64,000 nucleotides of DNA, from positions 744,001-808,000 of the forward strand of contig NZ_JANHMQ010000002.1 of assembly GCF_024609325.1 (NCBI RefSeq), given 5' to 3'. The position numbers were made by a program, and so were the translations under genes. Source of the DNA: Geothrix fuzhouensis. GTDB taxonomy: Bacteria > Acidobacteriota > Holophagae > Holophagales > Holophagaceae. This document shows, one piece after another, positions 9,461-17,121 of the stretch (the first letter of the stretch is position 1; each line of letters begins with the position of its first letter). The notes below the pieces were generated by a model, which was given only the letters and a program-made list of their open reading frames with translations, did no database searches and was not told the DNA's origin.

Positions 9461-10831
9461 ATGCGAGCAGGTCGCGGAAGGATCCGGTCGGTCGAATCTT
9501 CAGCACCGTTGAGGTGTTCAGCCTGGCGTTTCCTTTTCGCGACCCTGGCTACCCTGATGGCTCTGATCACCATGGTGGCGTGGGGATCCCAGGCCGCTGA
9601 GCGGACGGTGGGTGTCGCCCGGGTCCAGGGGACCATCGGTCCGGCGACGGCAGGCTACCTCGCGCGGGCCATCGGGGAGGCCGCGGGCCAGAAGGCCGAG
9701 TGCCTGATCATCGAACTCGACACGCCGGGCGGACTCCTCGACTCCACGAAAGAGATCATCCAGAGCTTCCTCCGGTCGCCCGTTCCCATCGTCGTGTACG
9801 TGTCGCCCCAGGGAGCCTGGGCCGGCAGCGCGGGGTGCTTCATCACGATGGCCGCCGACGTGGCGGTGATGGCGCCCTCCACCAGCATCGGGGCGGCGCA
9901 CCCGGTCGGGATCGGCTCTGGCGGCGAAAAACAGGATGAGGTGATGAAGCAGAAGCTGGAGAATTTCGCCTCCAGCTACCTCGAGGCCATCGCCGGGAAG
10001 CGGCATCGCAACATCGAGTGGGCCAGGGCCTCGGTGCGCGAAAGCGCCTCCATCACCGCTGACAAAGCCCTCCAGTTGAACGTGGTGGACCTCATCGCCA
10101 ATGATCGGTCCGACCTGCTAAAACAGCTCCAGGGCAGGGAGGTCGGTGAGCGGCGCCTGGAGACCGCGGGGGCCGCCATTCTCGAGATCCCGATGTCGGC
10201 GAGGGAGAAGGCATTCCAGGCCATCGCGCATCCCCAGGTGATGCTGATCCTGATGCTGGTCGTGGTGTACGGGATCATCGGGGAGCTCACCAGCCCCGGG
10301 GCCATCCTGCCGGGTGTGGTGGGCGTGATCGCCCTGCTGTTGCTGCTGTACCTCTCCTCGGTGCTGCCGATGAATGTCACCGGGCTGGCGCTGATCGCCG
10401 TGGGGATCCTGCTGTTCACCATCGACGCGTTCGCCCCAACGCACGGTGTGCTCACGGTCGGCGGCGTCATCGCCTTCTTCCTCGGCCTGGTCATGCTCTT
10501 CGATCGGGGTGAGCCCTTCCTGCGCCTGTCGCTGATATGGATGGTGCCGGCTACCGTCGTCACGGCCCTGTTCTTCATCTTTGTGGCCGGGGCAGGCATC
10601 CGCGCCCAGCGGCTTCCCGCCAGGGCCGGCGCCGAGACGATGCTGGGCCGGGTCGTCCCGGCCGTGGAACCGATCGATCCCACCGGCGGGAAGGTATTCA
10701 TCGAGGGCGAGTACTGGAATGCCATCAGTGCGGAGGCCATCGCGGCCGGCCAGGCAGTCGAGATCGTCGCCCTGAACGGGTTGACCTTGACGGTGAAACC
10801 GATGGGGACTTCCAAGGAGGAGCAACCATGA
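9461..10831 (+). CDS. nfeD: NfeD-family membrane-bound serine protease
   Basis: This is the long (456 residue) NfeD type: a signal/anchor helix (about 22-40), a ClpP-like protease domain (about 48-240), a block of membrane helices (about 258-385) and a small C-terminal OB-fold domain (about 390-450). The likely nucleophile is Ser123 in AGSAG, and ELDTPGG at 85-91 is the matching substrate-cleft motif. Relatives cleave stomatin-like partners. Here the next gene encodes exactly such a partner, joined by an ATGA overlap. The ATG at 9461 has GCGAGGT six bases upstream. Confidence 0.9.
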   Translation: MRAGRGRIRSVESSAPLRCSAWRFLFATLATLMALITMVAWGSQAAERTVGVARVQGTIGPATAGYLARAIGEAAGQKAECLIIELDTPGGLLDSTKEIIQSFLRSPVPIVVYVSPQGAWAGSAGCFITMAADVAVMAPSTSIGAAHPVGIGSGGEKQDEVMKQKLENFASSYLEAIAGKRHRNIEWARASVRESASITADKALQLNVVDLIANDRSDLLKQLQGREVGERRLETAGAAILEIPMSAREKAFQAIAHPQVMLILMLVVVYGIIGELTSPGAILPGVVGVIALLLLLYLSSVLPMNVTGLALIAVGILLFTIDAFAPTHGVLTVGGVIAFFLGLVMLFDRGEPFLRLSLIWMVPATVVTALFFIFVAGAGIRAQRLPARAGAETMLGRVVPAVEPIDPTGGKVFIEGEYWNAISAEAIAAGQAVEIVALNGLTLTVKPMGTSKEEQP

Positions 10832-11592
10832 ACGAATTCCTGTTGTACCTGGGCCCCTGGATCGCCGTGCTCCTGGCGCTGGGACTGATCGTCCTGCCCC
10901 AGGCGGCGCGCATCCTGCGTGAGTACGAACGGGGCGTGATCTTCCGCTGGGGCAAGCTCAAGGGCGCCAAGGGGCCGGGTCTGATCTTCCTGATCCCCTT
11001 CATCGACCGCATGGTGCGGATGGACCTGCGCGTGGTGACCATCGACGTGCCCAAGCAGGAGGTCATGACCCGCGACAACGTCCCGGCGACGGTGGATGCC
11101 GTGGTCTATTTCCGGGTGGTGGATCCGGAGTCGGCGGTGGTCAAGGTGGAGAACTTCCTCAAGGCCTCCTCCCTGATCGCGCAAACCACCTTGCGGAAGG
11201 TGCTTGGCCAGTCGGAACTGGATGAGCTGCTGGCCCATCGCGAAAAGATCAATGTCCAGCTGCAGGAGATCATCGACCGCCAGACCGCGCCATGGGGCGT
11301 GAAGGTGAGCACCGTGGAGGTGCGCGACGTGGTGCTGCCCGATGGCATGAAACGCGCCATGGCCAAGCAGGCCGAAGCTGAGCGCGAACGGCGCGCCAAG
11401 GTCGTCAACGCCGAGGGGGAATTCCAGGCCGCGGAGAAGATGGTGCAGGCCGCCGCCATGATGGCGGAGCAGCCCATCTCGCTTCAGCTGCGCTTCCTCC
11501 AGACCATGGTGGAGATCTCCAGCGAGCACAACACCACCAGCTTCATCCCACTGCCGAGTGAGCTCTTCCGGCCTTTCATTCAGAAAGGTTAG
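10828..11592 (+). CDS. Slipin/stomatin-like SPFH-domain protein
   Basis: This membrane-anchored SPFH (band 7) protein has 254 residues. One N-terminal membrane helix (about 5-25) is followed by the REYERGVIFRWGK motif and the SPFH domain, then a helical region rich in Ala/Glu (about 170-215). Such proteins oligomerise into membrane microdomains and are substrates or scaffolds for the NfeD protease encoded just upstream. The ATG at 10828 overlaps the nfeD stop and has AAGGAGG nearby. It is QmcA/slipin-like; paralogue-level naming is not possible here. Confidence 0.92.
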   Translation: MNEFLLYLGPWIAVLLALGLIVLPQAARILREYERGVIFRWGKLKGAKGPGLIFLIPFIDRMVRMDLRVVTIDVPKQEVMTRDNVPATVDAVVYFRVVDPESAVVKVENFLKASSLIAQTTLRKVLGQSELDELLAHREKINVQLQEIIDRQTAPWGVKVSTVEVRDVVLPDGMKRAMAKQAEAERERRAKVVNAEGEFQAAEKMVQAAAMMAEQPISLQLRFLQTMVEISSEHNTTSFIPLPSELFRPFIQKG

Positions 11593-11970: not shown

Positions 11971-14490
11971 ATGCGGACCCTGTACCGGATCCTCGTCTTC
12001 GTTCTAGGGGCCACGTTGGTGGCGTGCCTCCAGGCCCAGGTCCCGGTGCGGGACGCTGCGGAGCTGCAGAAACAGCTCGACCGGCTCCAGACCGTGGGCA
12101 GTGTCCTGTATATCGCCGCCCACCCCGATGACGAGAACACCGCCGTGCTCGCCACCCTCTCCCGGGGCCGCAACCTTCGTACGGCCTACCTTGCCATCAC
12201 CCGAGGAGGCGGCGGCCAGAACCTCATCGGCCACGAACTGGGCGATAGCCTCGCGGCCATCCGGACCCAGGAACTGCTGGCCGCGCGGCGGATCGATGGT
12301 GCCGAGCAGTTCTTCACGTCGGCGGTGGATTTCGGGTTTTCCAAGACGGCGGAAGAGTCCCTTCGGATCTGGGGCCACGACCGGGTCCTCGCTGAGGTGG
12401 TGCGGACCATCCGTGTCTTCCAGCCGGATGTCATCCTCACCCGGTTCCCGCCGGACGCGAGGGCAGGGCACGGCCACCACATCGCCTCCGCCATGCTGGC
12501 CATCGAAGCCTTCAAAGCCGCGGCAGACCCGGCCCGCTTCCCTGAGCAGCTCAAGGCTGGTCTCCGGCCCTGGCAGGCCACGCGGCTGCTGTGGAACCAC
12601 TTCCGTTTCACGGAGGATGCGCCCAAGCCCCCCGCCGGAAGCCTCACGCTGGACGTGGGCGCCTTCGATCCGCTGCTCGGCCGTTCCTACGGTGAACTCG
12701 CCGCCGAAAGCCGCAGCCAGCATCGCAGCCAGGGGTTCGGCGTGCTGGCTCAGCGGGGCCAGCGGGAGGAAAGCTTCGAGCTGCTACAAGGCCGGCCCGC
12801 GAAAAGTGATCTCTTCGACGGAGTTGATCTCACCTGGTCCCGCTTTCCCGGTACCGGTGGCCTTGCGGCGCTCCTGCGCGAGGCCCGACAAGGCTTCCGC
12901 CCCGAACAGCCTGCTCGCATCCTGCCGCAGCTCGTGCGGGCGCTGACGGAGCTGCGAGGCCTGCCCGCCGAGATCCGAACCAAGCCCATCGTCCAGGCCA
13001 AGGCCGCGGAATTGGGCGAGGCGATACGTTCCGCCGCCGGTCTCTGGGTGGAAGCCATCGCCGATCGGCAGCGCGTGGCGCCTGGCGACCCCCTCACTGT
13101 GAACGTCGCGGTGCTGGCCCGCGAAGGCGGCCCGCTGGTGCTGGATACCCTCGCCCTGGAGTCGCATCGGCCCGAAGGAGCCCGCGTACTGCAGACGCGC
13201 AAACCCGGGAAACCCCTGCCTGACAATGCACCTGAGAAGGAAGTGTTCACCTTCACCCTGCCCATGAATACACCGCTCAGCCAACCCCATTGGCTGGGGG
13301 GCCCGGGCGCCGAAGCCTGGGCGGGCCGGCCCGAATCCCCTGCGCCATTCCGCCTCAGGGCCCACCTGAGGCTGCCGGAAGGCACCTTCGACGTCGTCGT
13401 GCCAGTACAATTCCGGTTCCGCGATCCGGTCCTGGGCGAGCGGTACCAGCCCCTGGCCGTGGTGCCCGCCGCCCTGGTCAACCTCGCAGAACCGGTGCAG
13501 ATGTTTGAAGCGCCCACGGCGAAGGAGGTGCGCCTCAAGGTGCTGGCCGGCGGGGCATCCATCGCGGGACGGCTGCGGTTGAAGGTGCCTGAAGGGTGGC
13601 AGGTGGAGCCTGCCGAACAACCCTTCACGCTGACCCACGCCGGGGAGGCGCGCGAATTGGCCTTCCGCCTCACGCCGCCTGCGGCGGTGGCCTCCGGGGA
13701 ACTGCGCGCTGAGGTGGACACCGGGGTGGGCTTTTTCCCCGCGCACAGCCTCGTGACCGTTGACTATCCGCACATCCCCCTGCAGACGCTCCTGCCCGAA
13801 GCGAAGGCGCGCCTGGAGCGCTTCGACCTGAAGCACGATGGCCGCCGCATCGGCTACGTCATGGGGGCGGGCGATGACATCCCCCAGGCCCTGCGCCGGA
13901 TCGGCTACGAGGTGGAGCTCCTGTCGGACGAAGCGCTGGCCCGGGAGGACCTCGCCCGCTTCGACGCCATCGTGCTGGGTATCCGCGCCTTCAACACTCG
14001 TCCGGCCCTGCAGACCCTCAAGGAGCGCCTCCACGCCTACGTCGCCGCAGGCGGCACCGAGGTGGTGCTCTACACCGTGAACGTCGGCTTCCCGGGCATC
14101 AATGCCGCCATGGTCACGGAAGCCATCGGCCCCTATCCCTTCAAAGTGGGAAGGAAGCGCGTCACCGTCGAGACCGTGCCGGTGCGCCTCCTCCAACCCG
14201 GCCACCCCGTGTTCCACTGGCCCAACGAGATCACCGCCAAGGATTTCGACGGCTGGGTGCAGGAACGGAGCCTCTACCACGCCGAAGGCTGGGATGCCCG
14301 CTACACGGCCCTGCTGGGCATGGCCGACCCGGGCGAACACGAGGATGGCGGCGCCCTGATCGTGACCAAGTACGGGAAAGGCCACTACGTGTACACGGGC
14401 CTTTCCTTCTTCCGCCAGCTGCCGGATGGGGTGCCCGGGGCCACCCGACTCTTCGCCAACCTGCTGGCCCTGGGGCATGCCCATGACTGA
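11971..14490 (+). CDS. Secreted PIG-L/LmbE-type deacetylase with C-terminal glutaminase-like domain
   Basis: The 839-residue protein has a signal peptide (about 1-23) and an LmbE-fold N-acetyl hydrolase domain (about 42-260). Its zinc motif AHPDDE is at 50-55, with a further GHGHH motif near 168. Family members deacetylate N-acetylglucosamine-containing conjugates. A middle region of beta-rich modules (about 350-600) precedes a C-terminal ThuA/GATase1-like fold (about 625-835). It is the first gene of a tightly overlapped trio with a 38-residue membrane peptide and a sodium symporter. That context suggests breakdown of an amino-sugar compound outside the cytoplasm followed by uptake. Confidence 0.85.
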   Translation: MRTLYRILVFVLGATLVACLQAQVPVRDAAELQKQLDRLQTVGSVLYIAAHPDDENTAVLATLSRGRNLRTAYLAITRGGGGQNLIGHELGDSLAAIRTQELLAARRIDGAEQFFTSAVDFGFSKTAEESLRIWGHDRVLAEVVRTIRVFQPDVILTRFPPDARAGHGHHIASAMLAIEAFKAAADPARFPEQLKAGLRPWQATRLLWNHFRFTEDAPKPPAGSLTLDVGAFDPLLGRSYGELAAESRSQHRSQGFGVLAQRGQREESFELLQGRPAKSDLFDGVDLTWSRFPGTGGLAALLREARQGFRPEQPARILPQLVRALTELRGLPAEIRTKPIVQAKAAELGEAIRSAAGLWVEAIADRQRVAPGDPLTVNVAVLAREGGPLVLDTLALESHRPEGARVLQTRKPGKPLPDNAPEKEVFTFTLPMNTPLSQPHWLGGPGAEAWAGRPESPAPFRLRAHLRLPEGTFDVVVPVQFRFRDPVLGERYQPLAVVPAALVNLAEPVQMFEAPTAKEVRLKVLAGGASIAGRLRLKVPEGWQVEPAEQPFTLTHAGEARELAFRLTPPAAVASGELRAEVDTGVGFFPAHSLVTVDYPHIPLQTLLPEAKARLERFDLKHDGRRIGYVMGAGDDIPQALRRIGYEVELLSDEALAREDLARFDAIVLGIRAFNTRPALQTLKERLHAYVAAGGTEVVLYTVNVGFPGINAAMVTEAIGPYPFKVGRKRVTVETVPVRLLQPGHPVFHWPNEITAKDFDGWVQERSLYHAEGWDARYTALLGMADPGEHEDGGALIVTKYGKGHYVYTGLSFFRQLPDGVPGATRLFANLLALGHAHD

Positions 14491-14599
14491 GGGAGCCCCG
14501 CCCATCCTCGGGAGCTGGAAGCGCCTCTACCTGCTCGTGCTGGGCGAACTGCTGCTCTGCGTGCTGGGCTTCCGCTTGTTTTCCTGGTTCTTCTCATGA
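14483..14599 (+). CDS. 38-residue membrane peptide between deacetylase and symporter
   Basis: A very short reading frame begins at an ATG inside the end of the deacetylase gene and stops inside the symporter start codon (ATGA at 14596-14599). The peptide has a polar start (MTEGAPPILGSWKR) and one hydrophobic helix (about residues 15-37) ending in SWFFS. Overlaps at both ends make translational coupling likely. It may be a small accessory subunit of the symporter, as seen in some other SSS systems, but no family match could be tested. The main alternative is a chance open frame linking the two genes. Confidence 0.6.
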   Translation: MTEGAPPILGSWKRLYLLVLGELLLCVLGFRLFSWFFS

Positions 14600-16296
14600 G
14601 CCGGATCGACTGGATCGTGCTCGGCGGCGCGCTGCTGTTCGTGGTCCTCTGGGGCCTCTACAAGGGGCGTGGTGCCACCACCGGTGAGGGCTACATCGGC
14701 GGCGGCCGCGATCATCGCTGGTGGCTGATCGGCCTGTCCATCATCGCCACACAGATGAGCGCGATCACCTTCCTCTCCACCCCAGGCCTGGCCTACGTGG
14801 ATGGCATGCGCTTCGTGCAGTTCTACTTCGGCCTGCCTCTCGCGGCCATTGCGCTTTCCATCACGGTCATTCCGCTCTACCACCGCCTGAAGGTGTCCAC
14901 GGCCTACGAGATACTGGAGAACCGCTTCGATCTGAAGACCCGGCTGCTCGCCGCGAGCCTCTTCCTCATCCAACGCAGCCTCGCCGTGGGCATCACCATT
15001 TTCGCACCCGCCCTCGTCCTGTCGGTGCTGCTGGGCTGGAGCATCCACGCCAACATCCTCCTGGTCGGGGTGCTGGTCATGACCTACACCGTGGTGGGCG
15101 GCACCCGGGCGGTGGCCTGGGCCCATACGTCGCAGATGGTGATCATCGCCTTCGGGATGATTCTCGCGGGGGTGATGACCGCGCACCGGCTGCCGGCCCA
15201 CGTGAGCCTCAGCGATGCCCTGCATGTGGCGGGCGGGCTGGGGCGCCTGAATGCCATCGACCTCAAGTTCGACCTCAATAACCGCTACAACCTATGGTCC
15301 GGGCTGATTGGCGGGTTCTTCCTCATGCTGTCCTATTTCGGCACGGACCAGTCCCAGGTGCAGCGCTACCTGGCGGGGAGTTCCGTCACCCAGAGCCGGC
15401 TCGGCCTCCTGCTGAACGGCATGGTCAAGGTGCCCCTGCAGTTCCTCATCCTGCTGCTCGGCGTGCTGGTGTTCGCCTTCTACCAGTTCAACGCGCCGCC
15501 GCTCTTCTTCAACCCGGGTCCTGTGAAACAGGTCATGGCGGGTCCGGATGGGCCCGCCTACCGGGCCACTGAGGCCGAGTACGCGAAGGCACGGGAGGTC
15601 CAGCGCCAACGGGCCGAAGCCTTCGTGGCGGCCCGCCACGGTGGGGAGGCGGGGCTGGTCGCCGCCGCCAAGCAGCAGCTCCAGCAGGCCCAGGCGGAAA
15701 GTGAATCGGTGCGGCAGAAGGGCCTGGCGATCATCGAGAAGGCCAATCCGGGCACCCATCCCAGCGACGTCAACTACATCTTCCTCGCCTACGTGCTGAG
15801 CAGCCTGCCCGCGGGGCTGGTGGGCCTCGTGCTCGCCGCCGTGTTCTCGGGCTCCATGTCTTCCATGTCCGGGGAGATCAGCGCCCTGGGGGCGACCACG
15901 GTGGTGGATCTGTGGCGGCGCCTCATCGGGGGCAGCCGGGGCGTGCGCGAGGTCTGGGTGGGGCGCATCGCCACCTTCGCCTGGGGCTGCTTCGCCATGG
16001 CCTTCGCGGAGTACGCGGCCCGCCTGGGCTCCCTCATCGAGGCCGTGAACATCCTCGGGTCCCTGTTCTACGGCACCATCCTCGGCATCTTCATCACGGC
16101 GTTCTACGTCAAGCGCGCCAGGGGTGGCACGGCCTTCTACGCCGCCCTCGTCGCGGAAGTCGGCGTGTTCGCCTGCTTCAAGTTCACCAGCATCTCCTTC
16201 CTCTGGTACAACGTCATCGGTTGCCTCGCGGTGGTTGGCCTGGCTTGGGCTTTCAGCCTGTTCCGCACGCCGGACGCCCTTCCCCAATCGAGCTGA
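14596..16296 (+). CDS. Sodium:solute symporter (SSS family)
   Basis: This inner-membrane sodium-coupled transporter has 566 residues and about 13 predicted helices in the LeuT-fold SSS arrangement. YLAGSS and GSMSSMSGE are typical SSS segments. A hydrophilic, Ala/Gln/Glu-rich stretch of about 90 residues (300-387) interrupts the membrane region and probably forms a coiled-coil loop. The gene is coupled to the preceding micropeptide gene. A sugar, sialic-acid-like compound or amino-sugar product of the upstream deacetylase is a reasonable guess for the solute, but the sequence does not decide it. Confidence 0.88.
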   Translation: MSRIDWIVLGGALLFVVLWGLYKGRGATTGEGYIGGGRDHRWWLIGLSIIATQMSAITFLSTPGLAYVDGMRFVQFYFGLPLAAIALSITVIPLYHRLKVSTAYEILENRFDLKTRLLAASLFLIQRSLAVGITIFAPALVLSVLLGWSIHANILLVGVLVMTYTVVGGTRAVAWAHTSQMVIIAFGMILAGVMTAHRLPAHVSLSDALHVAGGLGRLNAIDLKFDLNNRYNLWSGLIGGFFLMLSYFGTDQSQVQRYLAGSSVTQSRLGLLLNGMVKVPLQFLILLLGVLVFAFYQFNAPPLFFNPGPVKQVMAGPDGPAYRATEAEYAKAREVQRQRAEAFVAARHGGEAGLVAAAKQQLQQAQAESESVRQKGLAIIEKANPGTHPSDVNYIFLAYVLSSLPAGLVGLVLAAVFSGSMSSMSGEISALGATTVVDLWRRLIGGSRGVREVWVGRIATFAWGCFAMAFAEYAARLGSLIEAVNILGSLFYGTILGIFITAFYVKRARGGTAFYAALVAEVGVFACFKFTSISFLWYNVIGCLAVVGLAWAFSLFRTPDALPQSS

Positions 16297-16376: not shown

Positions 16377-17042
16377 CTAAACGACGGGCAGAATCAACTC
16401 CGGCCCATCGTTGTGGACATTGCCTACGGCCTGGCCCACCGGATGGGCGCGCATCAGGTCGCTGGGGTAGGGCACCAGCAGCGGCTGCAGCTCGCGCACC
16501 TGAGCGGCCGGGTCCAGCCAGGCTTTCCACTGGGTTTTGGGGAGGATGGCCGGCATCCGGCCATGAATCGCGGCCATGAGGTCGTTGGGCGGGATCGTGA
16601 TGATGCAGGCGCTGATCATCACCTCGCCATTCGGTCCCTGCCAATCCTCCATCAGCCCGGCGAAGGCAAACAGGTCATTGTCCTTGGGGTAGATGTAGAA
16701 CGGTTGTTTCACCTTGCCCTCGGTCCTCCATTCATAGAAACCCGAGGCCGGGACGAGGCACCGCTTGCGGCGGAAGGCGCCCCGGAAGGTGGGCTTCACG
16801 GCCAGGGTCTCTGCGCGCGCATTGAATGGCTTCGGGCTGGTGTTGGGATCCTTGCTCCAGCCTGGAATGAGGCCCCAGTGGGCGACATCGGCCACCAGGT
16901 GATCCCGCTCGGGACGCACGATGACGATGTGTTGGCCCGGTGCGATGTTGTAGCCCTTCACGATGGTGAAACCAGGGGGGACCAGCGCGAAGGCCTCGGC
17001 CAAGGATTTGGCGTCGAAGGTGAAGGTGTAGCGGCCGCACAT
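16377..17042 (-). CDS. yedK: SRAP-domain protein (YedK/HMCES-type abasic-site crosslinker)
   Basis: SRAP proteins shield abasic sites in single-stranded DNA by forming a DNA-protein crosslink through Cys2. The ATG at 17042 gives MCGRYTF, placing the cysteine at position 2 as the chemistry requires; an ATG nine bases upstream would not. Other active-site residues are visible: Asn in NARAET, Glu in FYEW and His in IHGRMPAIL. The protein has 221 residues, normal for the family. Old names such as SOS response-associated peptidase reflect autocatalytic Met removal. No LexA box was recognised. Confidence 0.93.
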   Translation of the reverse strand: MCGRYTFTFDAKSLAEAFALVPPGFTIVKGYNIAPGQHIVIVRPERDHLVADVAHWGLIPGWSKDPNTSPKPFNARAETLAVKPTFRGAFRRKRCLVPASGFYEWRTEGKVKQPFYIYPKDNDLFAFAGLMEDWQGPNGEVMISACIITIPPNDLMAAIHGRMPAILPKTQWKAWLDPAAQVRELQPLLVPYPSDLMRAHPVGQAVGNVHNDGPELILPVV

Positions 17043-17121
17043 GGATGGCATGATGCCCGGACTGGCGAAATCCTGCTCGCGCTGGGGCCCTGGGTGGGGA
17101 GCCTGGTCCAGGCAGGCTCGA

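Follow-up and report, generated by a model that had tools for sequence, protein, structure and literature searches.

A conserved one-helix membrane peptide encoded next to a bacterial sodium:solute symporter, a probable accessory subunit of the transporter

Introduction

The 64,000-nucleotide stretch of Geothrix fuzhouensis DNA analysed here (the window) contains, between the gene of a PIG-L-type deacetylase and that of a sodium:solute symporter (SSS), a short open reading frame for a predicted membrane peptide that overlaps both of its neighbours. This raises the question of whether so small a frame is a gene at all and, if so, which of the two neighbours its product works with. An SSS transporter is generally regarded as a machine made of one protein; if several bacterial phyla share a conserved partner, what such helices do could be tested in simple cells. 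The gene is real, evolves under purifying selection and is both co-inherited and co-located with the symporter; the role proposed below for its product is that of a transporter subunit.

The locus and its neighbours

The features of the locus are collected in Table 1. The peptide frame runs from the ATG at 14483 to the TGA at 14597-14599 and encodes 38 residues (MTEGAPPILGSWKRLYLLVLGELLLCVLGFRLFSWFFS), which confirms the coordinates of an earlier note on this DNA, according to which the frame starts inside the end of the deacetylase gene and its stop overlaps the symporter start. The frame stays open 5' of 14483, where further in-frame ATGs occur at 14477 and 14426, so that initiation at 14483 is not proved; sequence conservation sets in near this position, which is retained as the candidate start codon. 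The single hydrophobic helix described in the same note is also borne out: the top 19-residue hydropathy window (LYLLVLGELLLCVLGFRLF) has a mean of 2.14, and the helix columns are conserved among relatives.

Table 1. Features of the peptide locus (positions in the window)
Feature	Position	Strand	Basis or remark
PIG-L-type deacetylase/amidase, 839 aa	11971..14490	+	PF02585, 59.9 bits vs cut-off 28.2
Gene of the 38-aa single-pass membrane protein (stop included)	14483..14599	+	ORF; frame kept at 21/21 orthologous loci read; pN/pS 0.43
Overlap of peptide start and PIG-L gene end	14483..14490	+	8 nt, different frame
Predicted Trp12-Phe37 helix, stripe W12, Y16, V19, L23, V27, F30, S34, F37	14516..14593	+	Alignment and hydropathy
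ATGA, peptide stop overlapping symporter start (ATG 14596)	14596..14599	+	4 nt
Sodium:solute symporter (SSS), 566 aa, proposed partner	14596..16296	+	PF00474, TIGR00813

The downstream gene product exceeds the cut-offs of both PF00474 (E 9.3e-35, 120.7 bits against a cut-off of 22.8) and TIGR00813 (203.5 bits against 184). Moreover, a structural model of a relative (locus L065) matches the structures of SiaT, SMCT1, NIS and SGLT and has the LeuT-type SSS fold (Z 41.4 over 464 residues, rmsd 2.3, against SiaT 5nva); these matches span model residues 65-634, that is, the symporter part, with the peptide outside. The upstream PIG-L protein carries a signal peptide with a possible lipobox (by eye). 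Its best NCBIfam neighbour is Mca, and it lies below the equivalog cut-offs of both Mca (TIGR03446, 54.9 vs 277.15 bits) and BshB (TIGR04001, 20.5 vs 182.5).

Further out, the window holds an ORF pair upstream of the cassette (9461-11592), resembling by eye an NfeD-type membrane protease and a slipin/stomatin (SPFH)-like protein, and, directly after the symporter on the minus strand (16377-17051), an ORF of SRAP/HMCES type, also by eye.

Evidence for a gene

The sample used for orthologues comprised 60 genomes, the window's own included, 22 of which have a symporter orthologue (at least 54% identity). The DNA upstream of it was read at 21 of these 22 loci, own locus included, G012 being left out because the gene is split between contigs. 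The peptide frame is intact at all 21 (window's own counted), so the frame with its conserved helix recurs between orthologous genes, as the earlier note had proposed to check, and the stops or frameshifts by which it would have been discredited are absent. Stop and start overlap throughout, as GTGA in 14 loci, ATGA in six and CTGA in one (L020).

Substitutions follow the reading frame as well. Across 20 distinct own-genus sequences (L020 left out), pN/pS for the final 33 codons is 0.43 in the peptide frame vs 0.85 and 2.24 in the shifted frames, and variable columns number 21, 13 and 31 of 33 at codon positions 1, 2 and 3. The first 100 codons of the symporter are under tighter constraint (pN/pS 0.16). 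The frame thus behaves as coding DNA under purifying selection.

Judged on these data and on the recurrence of frame, helix and overlap across phyla, the earlier note was right to call the small protein real, and the 38-residue peptide is, as far as sequences can tell, the product of a genuine gene.

The helix and its conserved face

An alignment of 97 peptide rows was prepared, covering 96 of the 100 loci L061-L160 (L069, L117, L138 and L139 fell out), and its columns were mapped onto the window's residues by eye. Trp and Tyr are each present in 97/97 rows, figures to be read with the fact that selection of the rows by profile score biases them towards the motif. Along the helix, conservation is highest in the columns W, Y, V, L, I, F, T and F, which follow one another at spacings of 4, 3, 4, 4, 3, 4 and 3, corresponding to one helix face; the periodicity power at 100 degrees was matched by only 3 of 5000 permutations. 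In a diverged Acidobacteriota set the W...Y pair is kept in 27/53 peptides and W is absent at its place in the other 26. A helix that packs on a protein would be expected to carry such a stripe.

When the L065 locus was modelled with the peptide stop read through (pLDDT 87.6, pTM 0.89, linker of low confidence), the peptide formed a helix at residues 25-50 (block pLDDT means 88-94); this predicted helix, confident as it is, stands alone and is no evidence of docking. The flank charges summed over 100 peptides (K+R 185 and D+E 107 on the N side, K+R 76 and D+E 32 on the C side) point weakly to an N-in topology, a hint that is given no weight here.

Distribution across phyla

A scan of GTDB genomes gave at least 589 relatives of the symporter, of which the best 80 were kept (47-87% identity). 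Among the matches listed, the nearest named relatives are Holophagaceae and Geothrix MAGs (84-87%), and the 80 span Bacteroidota groups, Ignavibacteria, Calditrichota, myxobacteria, Acidobacteria and others. A profile made from 19 Acidobacteriota peptides alone finds the peptide at E<=1e-3 in 69 of these 80 loci (best 80 of at least 589), and its top match lies ahead of the symporter in 77 of them. An iterated profile finds it at 80/80 (weakest E 0.006), a count that is circular, most of the rows having helped to build the profile. The association of this peptide family with one and the same sodium symporter thus extends over several bacterial phyla.

The junction of the two genes is largely preserved over this distance, with a 4-nt stop/start overlap at 60/80 loci (55 ATGA, 3 GTGA and 2 TTGA). 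The genes are separated by 116 nt in L087 and by 193 nt in L097, and in L085 the peptide gene lies 3.7 kb upstream of the symporter, adjoining PIG-L. Shine-Dalgarno motifs were considered as support for coupling and set aside as uninformative (only 3/60 before the peptide and 1/60 before the symporter).

Within the Acidobacteriota (396 genomes) the symporter occurs at E<=1e-100 in 150 places of 148 genomes, and 57 of the 60 strongest peptide matches fall at most 400 nt upstream of it. A listed match to the peptide profile lies within that distance at 73 of the 150 places: 59 at E<=1e-3, 10 between 1e-3 and 0.057, and four weaker ones chosen by us for their adjacency. For the other 77 places, 75 upstream stretches were taken (only 97 nt in L229), the two at contig ends being left out. 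A profile built without these 75 stretches scores at least 5 beside the symporter in 53 of them, elsewhere on the same strand in one and on the reverse strand in none. The remaining 22 consist of L229, L234 (symporter match truncated, peptide match further upstream), ten places where only a short hydrophobic frame of low score is seen, and ten lacking any candidate in the 900 nt upstream (L161, L162, L163, L165, L166, L173, L190, L206, L217 and L218, belonging to genomes G367, G335, G327, G382, G215 twice, G243, G142, G168 and G206).

Approximately 10 of the 150 symporter places therefore have no adjoining peptide, two of them with both neighbours intact. Genomes G335 and G327 carry PIG-L, bshC, bshB1, bshA and the symporter in one operon in which no peptide was detected; in G367 (L151) and G382 the peptide follows PIG-L, and the symporter is found 3.6-3.7 kb further on or on another contig.

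G215 has three symporter paralogs, of which a single one has a peptide candidate; of the other two, one (at 70258) directly follows a bshC gene (C3:68653-70221).

The partner of the peptide

In the own genus, symporter and PIG-L are present in the same 21 of 37 genomes, the cassette being all-or-none. The own-genus genomes of the phylum sample have the peptide whenever they have the symporter (14/14, E<=2.1e-17), and the 12 without symporter show no peptide match at E<=0.05. Because gain and loss of the cassette include PIG-L, the genus alone cannot tell which neighbour is the partner.

Other lineages are more informative. No PIG-L was found by tblastn (1e-4) in the stretch read, up to 5 kb on each side (shorter in L096, L097 and L103), at 16 of the 80 GTDB loci (best 80 of at least 589), and the peptide is kept at all 16. 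Furthermore, 19 Acidobacteriota genomes were selected by eye in which PIG-L follows the symporter at a distance of 18-330 nt (between matched ends), and in all 19 a peptide candidate precedes the symporter, 15 being recognised by the independent profile (scores 14.4-26.4) and four by E values of 0.015-0.057. Finally, two genomes with a strong PIG-L match (E<1e-200) and no symporter at 1e-100 (G079 and G193) gave no peptide match at E<=1. On balance, gene order and co-occurrence indicate that the peptide's partner is probably the symporter rather than the deacetylase. The coupling to the deacetylase put forward in the earlier note is incidental: where PIG-L is missing from the neighbourhood or lies downstream, the peptide remains beside the symporter.

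Acidobacteriota family f22 (e.g. G151, G263 and G390) shows the order peptide - symporter - PIG-L, not PIG-L - peptide - symporter. A fusion of peptide and deacetylase, hinted at by peptide matches inside open frames of 930-1161 aa (L141, L142, L144 and L145), was ruled out, as PIG-L matches in another frame and the long frame is merely open GC-rich DNA.

Proposed role and alternative explanations

The peptide is proposed to be a single-pass inner-membrane accessory subunit of the symporter encoded downstream, similar to MAP17, a reading to which we assign a probability of about 0.7 and in which contact, coupling and effect would be as follows. The peptide would be translated immediately before the symporter and, at the shared stop/start present in most relatives, the same ribosome would re-initiate, delivering the peptide in matched amounts next to the transporter as it is being made. 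With one face, the peptide's helix would then pack against the symporter and aid the latter's folding, stability or work, as MAP17 does for SGLT2. The earlier note had spoken of a small subunit possibly needed for symporter assembly: a subunit is indeed the best-supported reading, but "needed" is unproved, because some relatives, a minority, have the symporter and no detectable peptide.

Several other explanations have to be weighed against this one. Long open frames are common in this GC-rich DNA, and the peptide frame itself is open well upstream of its start, so that it might be a chance frame and no gene; this has virtually no probability left, being contradicted by the 21/21 intact loci, the cross-phylum profile matches, pN/pS, the profile scores concentrated beside the symporter and the helix stripe. 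The peptide could otherwise serve the PIG-L deacetylase, as its partner or its anchor in the membrane; it often directly follows PIG-L and in L085, L151 and G382 adjoins it with the symporter elsewhere. The peptide's persistence at the 16 loci where the stretch read contains no PIG-L, its place upstream of the symporter in the 19 genomes with a downstream PIG-L, its apparent lack in G079 and G193, and the occurrence of PIG-L without peptide in G335 and G327 make this improbable.

The two alternatives that keep the symporter as the partner are closer to the proposed role. The 4-nt overlap at 60/80 loci would also suit a translational-coupling leader, whose translation feeds ribosomes to the symporter start while the peptide itself matters little. 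A leader of this type would, however, hardly account for conserved amino acids (Trp and Tyr in 97/97 rows, the helix-face stripe, pN/pS 0.43), conserved also where the overlap is missing and the gap is 116 nt (L087), 193 nt (L097) or 3.6-3.7 kb (L085 and L151), and it is considered quite unlikely. Somewhat more weight is due to a peptide that binds the symporter as a regulator (an inhibitor, specificity switch or turnover adaptor, cf. SgrT, AcrZ and MgtR) and not as an assembly subunit: proteins as small as this one are regulators of several transporters, according to extracts of a review (PMC10710835), and some relatives manage without the peptide. The fixed stop/start coupling would nevertheless suggest a constant partner instead of a separately controlled switch, and the regulator is regarded as unlikely.

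A possible link with bacillithiol

In some lineages PIG-L, peptide and symporter are found together with the bacillithiol genes bshA, bshB1 and bshC, in the same operon or close by. The order in L085 (54-6695) is PIG-L, peptide, bshC, bshB1, bshA, symporter, with the bsh genes over their NCBIfam cut-offs; L151 repeats it, and so do L244 and L245, where both flanking proteins are present and the peptide was undetected. A search with queries from L085 only found bsh genes at 13 of the 100 loci L061-L160, some of them myxobacterial; none is found in the window. Outside the own family, BshC was counted in 120/127 genomes with the symporter vs 118 of about 230 others, a comparison made with no correction for phylogeny and after 31 weak own-family matches had been dropped. 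Extracts of one paper report bacillithiol genes in Acidobacteria and Bacteroidetes (PMC6282198), and extracts of another state that conjugate amidases release cysteine from such thiols (PMC6336425).

The window's genome encodes BshA and BshB1 over the cut-off. A weak BshC match (46 bits) lies just upstream of a clear BshB1 in this genome (G000:C1:697259-698493, locus L242). The weak match recurs in 29 of 37 genus genomes, which suggests a strongly diverged BshC. Within the genus it does not track the cassette, being found in 18 of the 21 genomes with it and 11 of the 16 without.

The gene neighbourhood in other lineages suggests that the transporter may serve bacillithiol metabolism, for which the operons make it a candidate transporter. 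A more specific and tentative scenario is that the peptide is an ancient one-helix subunit of a sodium-driven importer for bacillithiol turnover: a secreted Mca-like PIG-L amidase would cleave bacillithiol, or conjugates of it, on the outer side of the inner membrane, and symporter and peptide together would take up the product. The genus-level BshC result lowers the probability of this scenario, which we hold to be doubtful. If true, it would provide a bacterial counterpart of SGLT2-MAP17 and, within the literature searched, the first proposed bacillithiol-linked importer; neither peptide nor symporter as parts of the bacillithiol pathway, nor bacillithiol transport, was found among the literature matches listed.

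Comparison with known systems

Small membrane proteins encoded beside SSS genes are known in prokaryotes, mostly as two-helix families: DUF4212 (sodium-substrate symporter small subunit), YhdT/DUF997 with PanF, and DUF3311 with MctP; NCBI's 'symporter small accessory protein' is another SSS-adjacent small protein. None of these families was returned for nine peptide members in Pfam/NCBIfam searches at E<=10, in which the HMMER filters drop most matches above about 0.1, and no Pfam or NCBIfam model matches the peptide over its cut-off. The matches that did appear, to DUF6480 (3/9 members, best E 0.0085), DUF2976 (2/9, best 0.0043) and TIGR03745 (2/9, best 0.01), are far below the cut-offs and were taken as chance helix matches. 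A plasmid search for an annotated copy gave no match at 1e-60, and no description of the peptide family was found among the matches listed in the full-text literature, a scope outside which subscription papers and preprints lie.

Modulators of the AcrZ, MgtS, SgrT and MntS type are mostly not co-translated with their targets. In the extracts of the review already cited they resemble the peptide in having about 50 aa or less and acting on a transporter, and differ from it in that their targets are RND, PiT, PTS, P-type or Mn transporters; the same extracts list small proteins for several transporter families and none of this kind for SSS (PMC10710835).

The closest parallel is with the SGLTs. 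MAP17 (PDZK1IP1) is a single-pass protein and, to our knowledge, the sole one-helix partner of an SSS transporter. It is described, in extracts of one paper, as an essential auxiliary component of SGLT2, bound at its periphery on M13 (PMC9616851). Both systems pair a small one-helix protein with an SSS/SLC5 transporter (SGLT2 or SGLT1 in the case of MAP17), whereas only the bacterial peptide has a gene overlapping that of its partner. The peptide profile gave no match at E<=10 among PDB chains and so no sign of homology with MAP17, although peptides of one helix may diverge so far that such a search misses them; the parallel would be a functional one. In the alignments to SGLT2 chains the modelled bacterial symporter reaches only about residue 571, the MAP17-binding C-terminal helix having no counterpart there. 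A one-helix accessory protein of a transporter is a known kind of protein; the family, its host transporter group and the bacillithiol neighbourhood appear new, and the peptide would be the subunit to co-express before this group of transporters is studied.
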